Source of the DNA: Magnetococcales bacterium
GTDB lineage: Bacteria; Pseudomonadota; Magnetococcia; Magnetococcales; UBA8363
NCBI GenBank assembly: GCA_002753515.1
Contig: PEAK01000026.1
Location: 1-54,627, forward strand
Direction: 5' to 3'
DNA length: 54,627 bases
The translations under genes were made by a program, and so were the position numbers. The notes under the pieces were generated by a model. That model was not told the DNA's origin, did no database searches, and worked only from the letters and a program-made list of their open reading frames with translations. The first letter of the stretch is position 1; each line of letters begins with the position of its first letter. Positions 36,725-54,116 of this stretch are shown here, piece after piece.

Positions 36725-37010
36725 GCCTTTGCTGTACTTCAAAGGATCAAACCCACTCAAAAGAGTAGTATTGGTTCCCAGGGCGGTAATTCCCCCAGAT
36801 ATTGGCACCCGGACATCGGCCTTACTCTTTACTCTCCCCTTCCCTTCAGGGGGGCCATCATGAACTTCTTTGCCCCGGGTGGGAAGGATTGTTGAATTCA
36901 AACTGGATTTGCGTCACAGTCGTCCCGGTATTTTTCAGAGAACGGGAACGTTACGACTTGCGAGGGCTGCCTTGGGTAATGGGGATACCACGTCATCTTT
37001 GTATCAGGCA

Positions 37011-37760
37011 ATGCCTGTCATCATCCTGGATCGGACCAGTCATCCGGGCAACATTGGTGCGACGGCGCGTGTCATGGCGAACATGGGCCTGACAGAATTG
37101 CGTCTGGTAGCACCGGATCGGTTTCCCCATCCGGAAGCGGTGCAATTGGCGGCCAACGGCGCGGAAGTTTTGGCGCGTGCCCAGGTGTATGCCACCATGG
37201 AGGAAGCGGTTGGCGACCGGAATTTTTTGGTGGCTACCACCAATCGCGGCCGCGGCCAACGTCAGACAGTATTGACGCCACGCCAGCTCGGGGAACAGTG
37301 GGCCGACATTTCCAGATCGGGCACGATCAAGGGGGGGATCATGTTTGGGACGGAGCGCACCGGACTTTTGACCAAGGATGTGGAACGGGCCGATTGCGTG
37401 TGTAATATCCCTACTGTGGGGGGGTATGGATCCCTCAATCTATCGCATGCCGTCATGGTGATCGCGTATGAAATCATGGCATCGACCCGGGGCGGCTCAC
37501 CGCCGGGACTGATTCCGGTGGTCCATCGCACCTTGGCCACCAATGCCGAGATGGATCGATTGTTTCAGCATTTGGAAGAGGTACTCCGAGCCATTGATTT
37601 CATCAAACCCGGGCGGGGACACCATATGATGGGCAGTCTCAAGGCCATCTTCAATCGGGCGGCACTGGATAGCCGGGAAGTTTCCATCCTGCGTGGCATC
37701 CTGCATGAGACCCTCGCCATTCGCAAGAAAAGAGGTGACATGGCAGAGAAAAACGGGTAG
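37011..37760 (+). CDS. trmJ: tRNA (cytidine/uridine-2'-O-)-methyltransferase, TrmJ-like
   Basis: 249 residues. SPOUT-class signatures are clear: [25 protein letters not shown] at the start (here read in two pieces, [19 protein letters not shown]), MFGTERTGLL for the knot, and IPTVGGYGSLNLSHAVMVIAYE for the SAM-binding trefoil knot. The C-terminal region with IDFIKPGRGHHMMGSLKAIFNRA is the TrmJ extension. It modifies position 32 of tRNA. ATG 37011 fits the family N-terminus. The frame is open to 36870 but the extra sequence is unlike the family. The approximately 285 bp before it, shared with the divergent SUMF1-like gene, contain no clear promoter. Confidence 0.92.
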   Translation: MPVIILDRTSHPGNIGATARVMANMGLTELRLVAPDRFPHPEAVQLAANGAEVLARAQVYATMEEAVGDRNFLVATTNRGRGQRQTVLTPRQLGEQWADISRSGTIKGGIMFGTERTGLLTKDVERADCVCNIPTVGGYGSLNLSHAVMVIAYEIMASTRGGSPPGLIPVVHRTLATNAEMDRLFQHLEEVLRAIDFIKPGRGHHMMGSLKAIFNRAALDSREVSILRGILHETLAIRKKRGDMAEKNG

Positions 37761-37869
37761 GAGGAAGATCGGATTTCAAGAGTGAATCAATTCGCAATGA
37801 ATGACTTGGTATGGTCTAGTAAAATGGTGGCCTTCGGGTGGTTATTGACAGATATATCAGGATAATAAA

Positions 37870-40722
37870 ATGAAAAGAGTATTGATCATTGGTGGTATGG
37901 CTTCCGGTCCAAAATTTGCCATGGCTTTGAAAAGGCGGCGTCCTGACGTCGAGATTACTATCATTGAAATGAGTGATTATCTATCATTTGGGGCTTGTGT
38001 TCTTCCCCACCTTCTATCAGGTGTAGTGGCAGACGTAGAAGCGCTCAATCGTACTCCCTTAGGGGAAGAAAGAAATTCAACTTTCTTTTTGAAAAATGGT
38101 AATATCGCTACGCAAACGAAAACAGAGGCCCTTTGGGTTGATCGTTTACGAAGAAAGGTGATTACCCGGTCCTTATTATCGGAAGATAAAGTCATAGACG
38201 TGGGTTTTTTTGCCGGTCACGCCAGTGATTTTGATGTGATTCAAAAAATGGGTTTTATCAAAGACAATCAACTCACAGAGAAATTTTTTGATCAAGTGAG
38301 ACGTAAGGGAGTAGATGCTGAACATGACGAGTTAACGGTATCGACAGGTGGTGATTCATCACCGTATCGTCGATTTATTGACTTTCTGTTCCATCGATCC
38401 ATTTTGCTTGCGTTTTCATACGACAAATTATTCCTGGGTACTGGATCCACGGCGACGATTCCCCCCCTGACCTGCTATGACGATACAAAAATAATAGACA
38501 ACGTCCTGGTTTTTAAAAATGCTTTTTTGGTACGTACGATGGACGATGGTCGAGCAATTTCCAAAAGATTAAAAGTAGATAGTCCAAAGATGGTCACGAT
38601 TGTCGGTGGTGGGCTGATTGGTGTTGAGGTTGCTGCGGCGGTGCGAGATTTTGACGAGAATGTCGCTGTGCAGATTATTGAGATGAGGCCATCGATACTT
38701 TCAGATATGATAGAAGCTGATATATCTATCCATGCACAAAATTACCTGATAAGGAAACGTATAACACTCAATACCTCCACAAAAATTACAATCGTTCGTG
38801 GTTCGGATGGGTTCGCACGCACCCTTGAAACCGATCGAGGAGAATTATTTTCAACGGATTTGCTGTTGATTTGCACTGGCGTCCGTCCCAACGCACAGCT
38901 CGCGACACGGATCGGTTTGGATATTGGCGTAACCGGGGGAATACGGGTCAATGAACGCATGGAGACTTCCGATTCTGATATTCTTGCGGCAGGCGACTGT
39001 ATCGAAAACACTCACCGAGTCAGTGGGAAGCCAGTCGTTGCTCCCTTTGGTGACCTAGCCAATATTCAAGCACGCGTTGCTGCTGCAAATCTTTGCGGCC
39101 AGTCCATGGTATTCGAAGGAGTTATAGGAACGAGTATTGCAGAGATTGGCATAGAGAAAGATTCCTTCGGTGGTATCATCGCTCGTTATTCAGTCGGTGC
39201 TACTGGTCTGACTGAAAAAGAAGCTATGGAAGCTGGTTTTGATGTGGAGACTGTTTTGTTGCCGAGTAAAGATAGAATTTATTCTATGCCTGAAGCAGAA
39301 ATGATCTATCTGAAAATGATCGCAGACAAAAAAAATAGACGTTTACTTGGTGTTCAGGGAAGTGGCTTAGGGGATATCAATCGTCGCATAGCTTCAGCGG
39401 CAGCTTGGATTTATACAGGTGCATCCATTGATCAGTTATCCGTACTTGACCTTCCATATGCTCCATCGTATTCACCCGCTATCGATCCACTCATCATGGG
39501 AGCATGGGTCTTACAGAATAAAATTGCAGGACTATTTAGTGGGATCAAGCCACAAGAATTATTCGATAAACTTAAGAATCGCGAAATATTTCAATTGATT
39601 GATGTCCGTGAACCTATCGAATTTATGAATGAATCAATTCCTGGTTCTATGTTGATCCCTCTTAATGAGATCGAAAATTGGCTTTCTGATGCTCCTCGCA
39701 ATCAGGAATTCGTTCTTGTTTGTCTCGTTGGTCTAAGAAGTTATCTTGCTGCCAGAAAAATGCTATCCATGGGTTTTACTAATGTTAGGGTTATGGAAGG
39801 AGGTCTGGCTCTCTGGGGTGGCAAGATAGTCGGTGGAGATGATTCGGGCCAAGACTGCTGTATGATTCGATCCTATCTCATTGATAATCCTTCTGCTACA
39901 CAAAATTTACTCGATCTTGCTCCCAGATCGCCAAATTTAAAGAATGAAACGGTTAATATAGATGTATTAAACAGACGTAACGACCTGAGAACAAATATAA
40001 ATCATCCGCTATCACTGGAAACCGAGGGCAAATTGGTCTTTCAGGGCGTTTCTAGGAACATCAGCAGGAAAGGGATTTTCCTTTTTCTTGGTTATATGCC
40101 ACGTGGCATTCAGCTAGGGGAAGCAGGAAATGTATCAATCAATACTTGGTGCGGCACGCAATTCCGATTCCCTTGTAATGTCCAACATGTTTCTCAGGAT
40201 GGTGTCGGATTGGCGGTTCATGACTGGGACTTATTTGTCAATTCCTTGATTCGTGACATGGCAATTTTCAATACTGGAGAAAAGACGTTCGATGATGACC
40301 ATGTTAAAATGTGGAATATTCTCGATAATTTTTTTAATACATCGTTAAACCACGATAGTCAAAAAATATGGAGTACCGCACTACTTGATTGTGCTCGCAA
40401 GCATTTCTGGATAGAAGAAATAATGATGAAAAAAAATCGCTATCCAGGTTTGGATCGTCATATTGAGCATCATCAGCACTTTATTGACCAGGCTGAGGCG
40501 TTACATAATACAATTAATGAAAGTGATGTCGGAAACCCCGATGATCCTTTATCCTTTCATCTCGTCTCAAAGAAAAAGTTTGTGGAGTTCTTGAAATTTT
40601 GGCTTGTTCGGCACACGAATAGTATGGATCAAAGCATGGTCACTTATTTTCGCTATAAAGGTATTCGTGCAGTAATAAATAGTGACGACTATGACGTAGA
40701 AAATTCCAAATATGGACATTAA
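37870..40722 (+). CDS. CoA-disulfide reductase-like / rhodanese / PilZ / bacteriohemerythrin fusion
   Basis: 950 residues, ATG 37870 with agga eight bases upstream. Module 1 (1-540) is a flavin NADH:disulfide reductase: FAD motif IIGGMASGPKFAMA, the single redox cysteine Cys43 in SFGACVLPHLL as in CoA-disulfide reductases, NAD motif VTIVGGGLIGVEVA (242-255), and FAD motif ILAAGD. Module 2 (about 560-652) is rhodanese, with IDVREPIEF and active Cys618 in VCLVGLRS. Module 3 (about 700-790) is PilZ, with R703-x3-R707 and N730-x-S-x-x-G735 for c-di-GMP. Module 4 (about 800-930) is hemerythrin with all seven di-iron ligands visible: His811, His845, Glu849, His864, His868, His915, Asp920. About 90 extra residues (roughly 95-180) interrupt the first FAD half. 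The gene is clearly more AT-rich than its neighbours and ends inside a repeat. It is probably a persulfide or CoA-disulfide reductase controlled by oxygen and c-di-GMP; that role is inferred. Confidence 0.88.
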   Translation: MKRVLIIGGMASGPKFAMALKRRRPDVEITIIEMSDYLSFGACVLPHLLSGVVADVEALNRTPLGEERNSTFFLKNGNIATQTKTEALWVDRLRRKVITRSLLSEDKVIDVGFFAGHASDFDVIQKMGFIKDNQLTEKFFDQVRRKGVDAEHDELTVSTGGDSSPYRRFIDFLFHRSILLAFSYDKLFLGTGSTATIPPLTCYDDTKIIDNVLVFKNAFLVRTMDDGRAISKRLKVDSPKMVTIVGGGLIGVEVAAAVRDFDENVAVQIIEMRPSILSDMIEADISIHAQNYLIRKRITLNTSTKITIVRGSDGFARTLETDRGELFSTDLLLICTGVRPNAQLATRIGLDIGVTGGIRVNERMETSDSDILAAGDCIENTHRVSGKPVVAPFGDLANIQARVAAANLCGQSMVFEGVIGTSIAEIGIEKDSFGGIIARYSVGATGLTEKEAMEAGFDVETVLLPSKDRIYSMPEAEMIYLKMIADKKNRRLLGVQGSGLGDINRRIASAAAWIYTGASIDQLSVLDLPYAPSYSPAIDPLIMGAWVLQNKIAGLFSGIKPQELFDKLKNREIFQLIDVREPIEFMNESIPGSMLIPLNEIENWLSDAPRNQEFVLVCLVGLRSYLAARKMLSMGFTNVRVMEGGLALWGGKIVGGDDSGQDCCMIRSYLIDNPSATQNLLDLAPRSPNLKNETVNIDVLNRRNDLRTNINHPLSLETEGKLVFQGVSRNISRKGIFLFLGYMPRGIQLGEAGNVSINTWCGTQFRFPCNVQHVSQDGVGLAVHDWDLFVNSLIRDMAIFNTGEKTFDDDHVKMWNILDNFFNTSLNHDSQKIWSTALLDCARKHFWIEEIMMKKNRYPGLDRHIEHHQHFIDQAEALHNTINESDVGNPDDPLSFHLVSKKKFVEFLKFWLVRHTNSMDQSMVTYFRYKGIRAVINSDDYDVENSKYGH

Positions 40723-40815
40723 ACCGCAACCAATGTGGGATATGCAGTTTTCCAGCGTCATTCCCGCTTTCGCGGGAATGACAGAAACTACGCATCCCAA
40801 GATGGTTGCGGTTTA
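40720..40815. repeat. 96-bp palindromic repeat with TAAACCGCAAC ends
   Basis: The ends are perfect 11-bp inverted repeats, TAAACCGCAAC and GTTGCGGTTTA. Inside lies the hairpin gtcattcccgctttcgcggg with its aatgac partner. The first three bases are the stop codon of the upstream flavoprotein fusion. A second, longer copy is at 46765-46915 and a degenerate half copy is near 8072. It resembles a non-autonomous MITE/REPIN-type element and may also act as a terminator. Confidence 0.85.
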
Positions 40816-40826
40816 GATGCCAGGCC

Positions 40827-41540
40827 ATGATTCGTCTGGCCGAGGTCCCGGCGCATCTGGATGCGGTTGTTCCCTTGGCGGATGCCATGGAGGAAGAGTT
40901 GGCATGCTGGCAGGCCCGGGTCGGGGATGTCCTGACCATGGTGGACCCGGACGGTTTTTTTTTTCGTGCCAGGTTGTTACCTTCCCGAAGGGAGGTGGTG
41001 GTCTTTGAAACGGTTTCCCGGGCGGTGGAACCACTGCACCCGCGATGGTTATGTCCGGCGATCCCTGATCGGGAACGGATGCTGGTGATTTTGCAAAAGG
41101 CGGTGGAATTGGGGGCAACCGACATCATTCCCCTGGTTACGGAACATTCGTCCGCTGCCGGTGGGAGGCGTCATGGACAGGATAAATCGGCTACCTGGTC
41201 GCGCATAGTCCTGCAGGCGGCACGGCAATGTCGGCGAGCGATCCTGCCCAGATTGCATGCGCGGCAATCGTTGCGGACATTTTTGGCCGAGTCCATCGGG
41301 GGGAAAACGGCCTTTTTGGATACCCGGGAACCGCGGATGCCATTGAACCTTTGGCATGACCCCCATCAGGCTTTGGCCATTATGTGTGGGCCGGAGGGGG
41401 GATGGTCGGAGGAGGAACGGCTTCTGATGTTGGAACACCACGTGACCGCTGTTTCCCTGGGCCGGCGCTTGCTCCGGACGGAAACCGCAGCTGTTGCAGC
41501 CATGGCTGTGGTGACGATGCTTGATGATACCTTTACTTGA
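40827..41540 (+). CDS. rsmE: 16S rRNA (uracil-1498-N3)-methyltransferase RsmE
   Basis: 237 residues. The N-terminal PUA-like region has HLDAVVPLADAMEEEL and ARVGDVLTMVDPDG. The SPOUT methyltransferase part has LVILQKAVELGATDIIPLVTEHS (seen as ILQKAVELGATDIIPLVTE), WSRIVLQAARQCRRAILPRL, and the knot motif ALAIMCGPEGGWSEEE followed by SLGRRLLRTETAAVAA. These are diagnostic for RsmE, which methylates U1498 of 16S rRNA. ATG 40827 begins the family-like N-terminus; the frame is open to a TTG inside the repeat at 40806. The transcript leader is mostly the repeat element. Confidence 0.94.
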   Translation: MIRLAEVPAHLDAVVPLADAMEEELACWQARVGDVLTMVDPDGFFFRARLLPSRREVVVFETVSRAVEPLHPRWLCPAIPDRERMLVILQKAVELGATDIIPLVTEHSSAAGGRRHGQDKSATWSRIVLQAARQCRRAILPRLHARQSLRTFLAESIGGKTAFLDTREPRMPLNLWHDPHQALAIMCGPEGGWSEEERLLMLEHHVTAVSLGRRLLRTETAAVAAMAVVTMLDDTFT

Positions 41541-50807: not shown

Positions 50808-53000
50808 TTACAAATTGAGCAACAATTCTTCGACACTCACGTCATCCCATTGTTCGGCCTTAAGATGGGTCTCGGCGTATTGGCGGTAGATACCGCTCGT
50901 TAAAAACAACGCAAACACATCCCGGTCAATATGCTGGTCTTTGCACATGAAGCGCATGATTTTTAACGATTCACTTAATGTTTTGGCCTTTTTGTAAGGG
51001 CGATCCACGGCGGTGAGGGCTTCGAAGATATCGGCTACGGCCAAAATGCGTGCCTGGATACTCATTTGATCTCGGTTGAGGCCACAGGGATAACCGGTCC
51101 CTTTCATGGTTTCATGATGGGAGCTGGCCAGCTCCGGCACCCGGGTCATCCCTTTGGGAAACGGCAACTGACGCAACATCACCAGGGTATGGATGACATG
51201 TTCATTGATCTTGAAACGCTCTTCCGCATTGAGGGTGCCACGGGGGATGCATAAATTGTAAATTTCGCCAAAATTATAAGAATATTCTGGAATCTTCAGG
51301 GTTATGCCCAAGGCGACGGGATCGTAGGATAGACGTGTATTTTGGCGAGGTTGTTTGTGTTCCGGACGGTCCATCAACAACGGTTCCCGGGCTGGCAAGA
51401 CACTGCTGGGAGGGGTATCGGCCAGGCGCAACTCCTCCATGTTGGACAATCCCAACCGATCATCAAAATATCGTTGCCAAGTGCGGGAGGCGATTTCCTG
51501 AATACGAGCCAAGTGTGGTGAGGTCATCAGGTCATCGCCAACGTTACAGCGGGCTATGAAGGCGAAATCGTCCCGCAACGTTGCCAAGGTTGCCTGCAAT
51601 TGGGCGGCATCAGGATTGTGGCCCGCCAAACGCTGTTCCAAATGGTCGATTTGCGCATCGCGCCACAGCACCTCAAAGCGCATGCGAATTTCGTGAATGC
51701 GGTTGCTGACGCACTCCAGCTTGGTTGCCTTGTCAACCACGACCTCAGGTGTCGTGACCTTGCCACAATCGTGCATCCATCCCGCCAGGTGAAACTCTTT
51801 CCAGTCATCCTTGCTCATGGAAAAATGGGCAAAGGGTCCCGAGTTGGCATTGCAAGCCGCTTCCGCCAACATGTTGCCCAGCATGGGTACCCGTTCGCAA
51901 TGACCGCCGGTATAGGGCGATTTGGCATCGATGGCGCTCGCCATCACCCGAATGATGGCATTGAATAAATTTTCCTGGGCTTGCATCAGGTTCAGGTTGT
52001 CCAGGGCAATGGCACCCTGGGTTGCCAGGGCTTCGACAAAACCGATCCATTCGGGATCAAAGGGGACAATGGTCTTGGTTTCAGGATGCACGGGATTGAT
52101 CAATTGCAATACGCCCAGGGGAGCCCCTTCCCGAGGTTTTAACGCCACGGTCAGCATTGACTGGCTGCGATATCCCGTCGCCCGGTCGTAGCTGAGTGTG
52201 CCTGACACATCGAACGTTCCGGCATTATTGTAAATATCTTCCAATAGGACCGATTCGCCTGTGAGGGCCACGTGGGTGGCAACAAAACGATGCACCTCTT
52301 GGCCGGTTTCTGGATCATACAAGGGGAGGAGAAACGAGGGGAGCTGATCGCCGCTGGAAAGATAGGCGAAGCGCAGTTGATTGTTTTCGGTGCGTAAATA
52401 CAGCGTTGCTTTGTCGGCATAGGTTAAATCTTTGCCACCATGTAAAATTTTGCGCAGCAAAGAATCGATATCCCGTTCCATGGAAAGGTCTTTGGCAATC
52501 GCGACCAGCTTTTGCAGTTTGTTGCGTTCCACGTCCAGGTAATGTTGAATCTGCTTGTGCGTCGTGTGGACGGCCAGTTGGTTATGGATGCGGCGTTGTA
52601 GGATGGCGGGGATGACAGGTAGGGTCACATAATCGGCAGCTCCCAGTTCCAATCCACGTTGCTCCAAGACGGCGTCGGCGTGATCGGCCAGCAAAATGAC
52701 AGGGATTCCTTGGGTTTCCAGAAAATGGTGCATCTTTTCAAGGAAGGTCGGTCCATCGGTATCCGGTAATGTCACGTTGAGCAGAACCAGGTCCGGGGCA
52801 TAGCCTTCCGTTATCTTGGTGATGGCTTCCTGGCCATTTCGGGCGAACTGGAGGACGTACTTTTCCTGCAACAGGGGGGAGATCCAGGTTGCCTTATCCG
52901 GTTCGGGATCGGCGAGCAAAAGTTTAGGAGGTGTCGATACCAGGGGACCGGCCATGTCGTTTTCAGTCGGAACGGATTCAAGAGACAAGGGAATGGGCAT
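50808..53000 (-). CDS. Degenerate receiver / GAF / HD-GYP protein
   Basis: 730 residues from ATG 53000, preceded by gaagggtggg; ATG 53012 is also in frame. The receiver domain (25-140) lacks the phosphoacceptor: Asn75 replaces Asp in LVLLNVTLPDTDG, and the usual Lys-Pro is Leu127-Pro in YVTLPVIP. It is therefore probably not phosphorylated. A coiled coil leads to a GAF domain (about 160-330). The HD-GYP domain follows: HCERV, HDCGKVTTPE (His410-Asp411), and SSHHETMKGTGYPCGL with GYP at 636-638. An extra block of about 160 residues splits the HD and GYP halves. Such domains hydrolyse c-di-GMP to GMP; whether this one is active is not settled. Confidence 0.88.
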   Translation of the reverse strand: MPIPLSLESVPTENDMAGPLVSTPPKLLLADPEPDKATWISPLLQEKYVLQFARNGQEAITKITEGYAPDLVLLNVTLPDTDGPTFLEKMHHFLETQGIPVILLADHADAVLEQRGLELGAADYVTLPVIPAILQRRIHNQLAVHTTHKQIQHYLDVERNKLQKLVAIAKDLSMERDIDSLLRKILHGGKDLTYADKATLYLRTENNQLRFAYLSSGDQLPSFLLPLYDPETGQEVHRFVATHVALTGESVLLEDIYNNAGTFDVSGTLSYDRATGYRSQSMLTVALKPREGAPLGVLQLINPVHPETKTIVPFDPEWIGFVEALATQGAIALDNLNLMQAQENLFNAIIRVMASAIDAKSPYTGGHCERVPMLGNMLAEAACNANSGPFAHFSMSKDDWKEFHLAGWMHDCGKVTTPEVVVDKATKLECVSNRIHEIRMRFEVLWRDAQIDHLEQRLAGHNPDAAQLQATLATLRDDFAFIARCNVGDDLMTSPHLARIQEIASRTWQRYFDDRLGLSNMEELRLADTPPSSVLPAREPLLMDRPEHKQPRQNTRLSYDPVALGITLKIPEYSYNFGEIYNLCIPRGTLNAEERFKINEHVIHTLVMLRQLPFPKGMTRVPELASSHHETMKGTGYPCGLNRDQMSIQARILAVADIFEALTAVDRPYKKAKTLSESLKIMRFMCKDQHIDRDVFALFLTSGIYRQYAETHLKAEQWDDVSVEELLLNL

Positions 53001-53150
53001 CCCACCCTTCATCTTGGATGGTTGATCGTGGCAAAGGTTATCACGGATTCGGATAAAATGCTAAACTCTTTGGTTTGAGAGGGGTATTGTGGAAGAACAG
53101 GAATGGTGAGTTTGTTTCATGAATGTTAAGGTGCCGATATTTTTTCCCTA

Positions 53151-53390: not shown

Positions 53391-54116
53391 TTACTGTTGT
53401 TGATTAGGCTGACCGGGTTGGCCGGGCTGGCCGGGTTGACCGGGTTTACCAGGTTGGCCGGGCTGACCGGGTTTACCAGGCTGGCCGGGTTGACCGGGTT
53501 TACCAGGCTGGCCGGGTTGACCGGGTTGGTTAGGTTGACCGGGTTGGTTAGGTTGACCGGGTTTACCAGGCTGGCCGGGTTGACCGGGTTGGTTAGGTTG
53601 ACCGGGTTGGTTAGGTTGACCGGGTTGGTTAGGTTGACCGGGTTGGTTAGGTTGACCGGGTTGGTTAGGTTGACCGGGTTGGTTAGGTTGACCGGGTTGG
53701 CTAGGTTGACCGGGTTGGTTAGGTTGACCGGGTTGGTTAGGTTGACCGGGTTGGTTAGGTTTACCAGGCTGGCCAGGTTGACCGGGTTGGCCAGGTTGAC
53801 CGGGTTGGCCAGGTTGACCGGGTTGGCCAGGTTGACCGGGTTGACCGGGTTGGTTAGGTTGACCGGGTTGGCCAGGTTGACCAGGTTGACCAGGTTGACC
53901 GGGTTGACCGGGTTGACCGGGTTTACTAGGCTGGCCTTGTTGACCGGGTTGGTTAGGTTGACCGGGTTGACCGGGTTTGCCAGGCTGGCCTTGTTGCATA
54001 CCCTGATCCTGCATAGGCTGTCCAGGCTGACCGGGTTGCTCAGCAAGAACTAAGCTTGAGGCACCAGCCATGGAAATTGCAGCAGCAACGCTCAATACGG
54101 TAAGTAATTTTTTCAC
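53391..54116 (-). CDS. Secreted collagen-like Pro-Gly-Gln-(Pro/Asn) repeat protein
   Basis: 241 residues from GTG 54116, with aaggag seven bases upstream. The signal peptide is [20 protein letters not shown], cleaved near LVLA-EQ. The rest is almost wholly the triplets PGQ, PNQ and PGK (for example [12 protein letters not shown]). This gives a collagen-like Gly-every-third pattern, interrupted where Asn replaces Gly. It has no hydrophobic core and no cysteines, and should be an extended secreted polymer. Function is unknown; matrix, surface coat or mineral-binding roles are all possible. It has its own terminator. Confidence 0.75.
53403..53998. repeat. Short tandem coding repeats (9/18 bp) of the PGQ protein
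   Basis: Units such as ttgaccgggttggttagg (18 bp) and ttgaccgggttggccagg are repeated dozens of times. The plus strand carries long open frames only because the unit length is a multiple of three. Confidence 0.9.

Follow-up and report, generated by a model that had tools for sequence, protein, structure and literature searches.

A single open reading frame in a 54,627-nucleotide contig of a Magnetococcales bacterium (PEAK01000026.1, forward strand; the whole stretch is referred to here as the window) appears to join a sulfur enzyme to two signalling domains. The question raised by this locus is whether such a gene is genuine and, if so, what its product does. The frame lies on the + strand, runs from an ATG at 37870 to a TAA at 40722, and encodes 950 amino acids with no internal stops. 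Pfam and NCBIfam profile matches gave the module order pyridine-nucleotide-disulfide reductase, rhodanese, PilZ, hemerythrin, in agreement with an earlier note on this DNA that had described a four-module fusion. Specifically, Pfam detected Pyr_redox_2 at residues 3-379 (interrupted, 8e-42), Pyr_redox_dim at residues 437-538, Rhodanese at residues 565-650 (9e-14), and PilZ at residues 701-785 (1.2e-6 in the whole protein; 3.6e-8 for the domain alone, which at 34.1 bits is above the PF07238 cut-off of 22.5). The hemerythrin match at residues 805-924 fell short of the Pfam cut-off when the full sequence was scanned but exceeded it for the domain alone (28.4 versus 25.3 bits), and the NCBIfam profile TIGR02481 scored 60 bits against a cut-off of 51.75. 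The residues picked out in the earlier note as key (C43, C618, R703/R707, N730-S732-G735, and seven di-iron ligands) are all located where it had placed them. GC3 was 0.31-0.39 in every module of the fusion gene, as compared with 0.65-0.67 in the neighbouring genes. A frame error or an assembly join between modules, either of which the note had regarded as damaging to its proposal, is not indicated by the uninterrupted frame, the codon style shared by all modules, or the ancestral flanks described below. The four-module gene is real and looks intact, with its catalytic and ligand residues complete.

The gene is flanked on the left by a TrmJ-type RNA methyltransferase gene (36999..37760, +; TIGR00050), the C-terminus of which is altered by an insertion, and on the right by an RsmE-type 16S rRNA methyltransferase gene (40827..41540, +; TIGR00046). 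The two flanking genes lie ∼3.1 kb apart in the window, whereas in 7/7 available congeners they overlap, abut, or are separated by no more than ∼20 bases. Comparison with the empty site in the closest congener, G001, in which both flanks are 95-98% identical at the DNA level, delimited a low-GC inserted segment at 37719..40821 that is absent from all seven congeners. This segment contains the fusion gene and a repeat at its right edge, and nothing else. The repeat (40720..40816, ∼97 bp) is palindromic, with ends TAAACCGCAACC...GGTTGCGGTTTA, is present in high copy in the host (123 matches in its own genome), and is probably MITE- or REP-like. Its first three bases serve as the fusion gene's stop codon. 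At the other edge (37719-37760) the TrmJ C-terminus, ASRERH in G001, has become AIRKKRGDMAEKNG after the insertion. The empty site in all congeners and the low GC3 relative to the neighbouring genes argue for a foreign origin, and the locus is best read as the recent horizontal acquisition of one whole gene.

The closest solved structure to the reductase and rhodanese modules was the NADH-dependent persulfide reductase (Npsr) of Archaeoglobus fulgidus (AfNpsr, NoxA-3; 6pfz), with an E value of 2e-104 across both modules and ∼40% identity across the aligned parts. An AlphaFold2 model of the core, produced from an alignment of 44 relatives, had pLDDT values mostly >90 across the reductase and rhodanese and matched 6pfz with a TM score of 0.95-0.96, normalised to target. 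The first part of the FAD domain, aligned to 6pfz and the 44 relatives (residues 1-98; 37870..38163, +), contains the N-terminal dinucleotide-binding Gly motif, the catalytic Cys43 (codon 37996-37998), and the CoA-lid loop at residues 62-68. The sequence of this loop, T62-x-x-G65-x-x-R68, corresponds to the AfNpsr lid loop and is typical of the AfNpsr subfamily. The remainder of the reductase (residues 183-550; 38416..39519, +) provides GGGLIG and Glu271 in the NAD domain and Tyr530 in the dimerisation domain, and the rhodanese domain (39562..39819, +; PF00581) carries its active-site Cys618 (codon 39721-39723) in the motif CLVGLR. Residues C43, P46, Y530, C618, and R623, invariant in the 44 relatives, are kept in the window protein. 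Glu271 aligns with AfNpsr Glu183, which is the proposed NADH selector (PMC7969121).

On its sequence the core belongs with the Npsr enzymes, sharing with AfNpsr the FAD/NAD reductase and rhodanese architecture, the equivalents of Cys42 and Cys519, the lid loop, and the NADH-selecting Glu. AfNpsr is only 551 residues long, without the FAD-domain insert described below, PilZ, or hemerythrin. The same architecture and fold are seen in Shewanella loihica Npsr (3nta), Bacillus anthracis CoADR-RHD (3icr), and the Enterococcus faecalis CoA-persulfide reductase (8a56), although these are more distant in sequence from the window core and lack the regulatory tail. The NCBIfam equivalog for CoA-disulfide reductase, TIGR03385, gave only 257 bits against a cut-off of 578.8. 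Because Cys43, Cys618, the CoA-lid loop, and Glu271 are all kept, the likely substrate is a persulfide and not CoA disulfide. Persulfides and polysulfide are both reduced by AfNpsr, the activity of which towards CoA disulfide is undetectable (PMC7969121). Of the earlier suggestion of persulfide or CoA-disulfide reduction, the persulfide half is thus favoured, and the CoA-disulfide half is disfavoured by the inactivity of this relative.

The core is nevertheless strongly diverged. Residues 99-182 (38164..38415, +) form a segment of 84 residues where the 44 aligned relatives have 10-12, so that ∼72 extra residues are present in the FAD domain that occur in none of the relatives examined. AlphaFold2 modelled this insert as three helices with low confidence. 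It had no match in Pfam and only weak, chance-like matches in the PDB, and it could disturb function. A smaller insertion is located near residues 428-438. Several sites that are near-invariant in the 44 relatives are changed, with V44, L372, A401, and S533 in place of G, Y, G, and P, respectively. Another of these sites, position 472, an aromatic residue in the relatives (Y in 24/44, F in 20/44) as a trend in this alignment rather than a published defining residue, is Ser in the window protein, with Tyr at 471. The window core also has the longest end branch in a 69-row tree (2.56, as compared with a median of 0.22) and falls in no starred small group, so its placement is unsure; the nearest rows by path include a clade of L047, L048, L148, and L153. 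The only other Npsr found within the host order, an ordinary copy of 580 aa, comes from the congener G003 (L163 5962-7704, +); it shares ∼38% identity with the window core and has a long branch of its own.

In the C-terminal half, the PilZ domain (39970..40224, +; PF07238) has a complete signature, with both RxxxR (residues 703 and 707) and D/NxSxxG (here NxSxxG, residues 730, 732, and 735), and is a likely c-di-GMP receptor. A single-sequence search of the PDB with this domain gave no match. The hemerythrin domain (40282..40641, +), identified by TIGR02481 and by alignment with the hemerythrin domain of the chemoreceptor DcrH (2awc), has the ligands H811, H845, E849, H864, H868, H915, and D920. 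All seven align with those of DcrH, with equal spacing inside the ligand-bearing helices (H+4E, H+4H, H+5D), at an identity between the domains of ∼23%. It is likely to be a di-iron oxygen or redox sensor. Structure prediction of the C-terminal half from the single sequence gave a mean pLDDT of 37.5, an unusable model. Two known proteins, Bhr-DGC of Vibrio cholerae and Bhr-HD-GYP of Ferrovum, likewise combine hemerythrin with an enzyme and involve c-di-GMP. Those enzymes make or degrade c-di-GMP, whereas the window protein joins its likely c-di-GMP receptor to a sulfur enzyme. The characterised hemerythrin fusions to c-di-GMP enzymes respond to the redox state of the iron and not to ligand binding (PMC9388753).

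Searches with the whole protein recovered only reductase-rhodanese proteins, and no full-length relative, from 48 genomes of the host order, from the host phylum (398 genomes), and from two other phyla, those that include a Desulfococcaceae MAG (395 genomes) and a Scalindua MAG (392 genomes). There was no match covering 80% of the query among 72,556 plasmid records and no relative of the whole protein among viral contigs. The PilZ-hemerythrin half, searched against the class that includes Thiospirillum (369 genomes), recovered hemerythrin alone and no fusion. When 84,980 species were scanned for two peptide patterns taken from the window protein, an approach that would miss homologues lacking both peptides, the 80 best loci were all reductase-rhodanese only. 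With most phyla sampled at best, and the search confined to genome, plasmid, and viral sequences, not found does not mean unique. The literature search found no paper joining hemerythrin, PilZ, and rhodanese. The author of the earlier note had known of no reductase-rhodanese fusion that adds c-di-GMP and oxygen sensing, and our searches likewise found no described protein with this architecture; nor does the architecture look widespread, as the note had cautioned it might be, no second copy having turned up in the searched genomes and plasmids or in the species scan. The protein appears to combine domains in a new way around a known enzyme.

Fusion of Npsr to other signalling modules was observed in three MAGs from two groups, where an N-terminal histidine kinase module precedes a complete Npsr. 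These are L153/L159 (816 aa from the ATG in L159, 4357-6807, +), L048 from a Phycisphaerae MAG (43-2352, +; the contig edge falls at its N-terminus), and L180 (1480-3969, -). The kinase module comprises HATPase_c and a HisKA-like segment, the Pfam significance of HisKA being weak and confined to L153. As in the window protein, an Npsr core is joined to signalling modules, and L048 and L153 belong to the clade nearest the window core by tree path; however, the kinase is N-terminal, the Npsr core is ordinary, and PilZ and hemerythrin are absent. No paper combining a histidine kinase with CoA-disulfide reductase and rhodanese was found in the open literature searched. These fusions indicate that the window gene is not the only case in which Npsr is joined to signalling modules.

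In the host genome, DsrA and DsrB both score above cut-off, and dsrA, dsrB, and a DsrL-like gene lie in a row (L174 7753-12066, -). The 624-aa protein adjoining DsrA/DsrB belongs to NF009410, which we take to be the DsrL family. SoxB was not found in the host genome with TIGR04486. The host therefore has a dissimilatory sulfur pathway. The host had previously been called a sulfur oxidiser; the sulfur pathway is borne out, and the oxidative direction is plausible. An HD-GYP-like protein encoded in the window (50808-53012; motif read by eye) makes c-di-GMP turnover in the host likely. Elsewhere in the window are a large adhesin-like protein with several near-identical repeats of ∼110-120 residues (71-2572, +), followed by membrane-fusion-type proteins and a membrane protein (all by eye), and a secreted-looking protein consisting almost wholly of repeats (53391-54116, -).

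We give about an even chance to the reading that the gene encodes a horizontally acquired, AfNpsr-type NADH-dependent persulfide/polysulfide reductase with a C-terminal regulatory tail of PilZ and di-iron hemerythrin. By analogy with characterised relatives, Cys618 of the rhodanese would take up sulfane sulfur, which would pass to bound CoA and then to Cys43 beside the FAD, with sulfide released at the cost of NADH. PilZ and hemerythrin would most likely alter enzyme activity or partner binding according to the c-di-GMP level and the oxygen or redox state. We infer this gating by c-di-GMP and oxygen, and information could equally run from the reductase to PilZ. A regulated reductase is supported by AfNpsr as the best relative, by the core fold, by the catalytic residues, by the complete PilZ motif and hemerythrin ligands, and also by the recurrence of Npsr-signalling fusions and the likely c-di-GMP turnover of the host. 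Counting against it are the longest branch in the tree together with the changes at near-invariant sites, the failure to find a sigma-70 promoter-like site upstream of the fusion gene, and the lack of a second copy, which leaves nothing to show that the fusion has been kept by selection.

The divergence of the core could alternatively fit a sensor with relaxed catalysis. In that case the reductase-rhodanese would sense sulfane sulfur or the NADH state, hemerythrin would sense oxygen or redox state, and PilZ would be the output, through c-di-GMP binding and contact with a partner that might act, for example, in motility or surface growth; the protein would then be a receptor and not a metabolic enzyme. 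The position of Npsr C-terminal to histidine kinase modules in the three MAGs also fits a sensory role. However, the catalytic cysteines, the CoA lid, and the NAD site are all kept, and PilZ outputs normally need partners, whereas the inserted segment holds the fusion gene alone with no linked partner. We consider such a receptor possible but unlikely.

Decay of a non-functional foreign gene confined to one lineage would account for the single occurrence, the very long branch, the FAD-domain insert, the stop codon supplied by the repeat, and the empty site of the congeners. Against this, the gene has 950 codons without a stop and a coding-like base pattern throughout, and the catalytic and ligand residues are kept across all four modules, making decay improbable. 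Still less probable is NADH-driven removal of oxygen, in which electrons would pass from NADH through FAD to a hemerythrin di-iron site that binds or reduces O2, with tuning by PilZ. AfNpsr does show NADH oxidase activity in air (PMC7969121), and the window protein carries a likely di-iron O2 site in the same polypeptide as its reductase, but no electron path from such a flavin fold to hemerythrin is known, the scheme would leave the CoA lid and the cysteine of the rhodanese without explanation, and the characterised fusions of hemerythrin to c-di-GMP enzymes are redox sensors (PMC9388753). A chimeric contig of unrelated pieces, suggested by a draft genome in 134 contigs and by a high-copy repeat, a typical misjoin site, at the right edge, was rejected on the empty-site evidence as highly improbable, since two precise misjoins at the ancestral trmJ/rsmE boundary would be required and the modules share one frame and one codon style.

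Sulfane sulfur, oxygen, and c-di-GMP have each been recognised as signals, and we found no described protein that would join all three. For the regulated persulfide reductase, we tentatively propose that c-di-GMP and oxygen or redox state would jointly control the enzyme within one polypeptide and would thereby tie lifestyle signalling directly to the sulfane sulfur of the cell. This would be one instance of a broader, undescribed coupling of Npsr to signalling, with histidine kinases as the modules elsewhere. If the modules are uncoupled, the locus would still offer a clear example of an orphan fusion gene whose insertion is recent and whose empty site has been mapped. If they are coupled, the link between sulfane sulfur, oxygen, and c-di-GMP would be testable in vitro in one purified chain, and the histidine kinase-Npsr fusions suggest that persulfide reductases may have a wider role in signalling.
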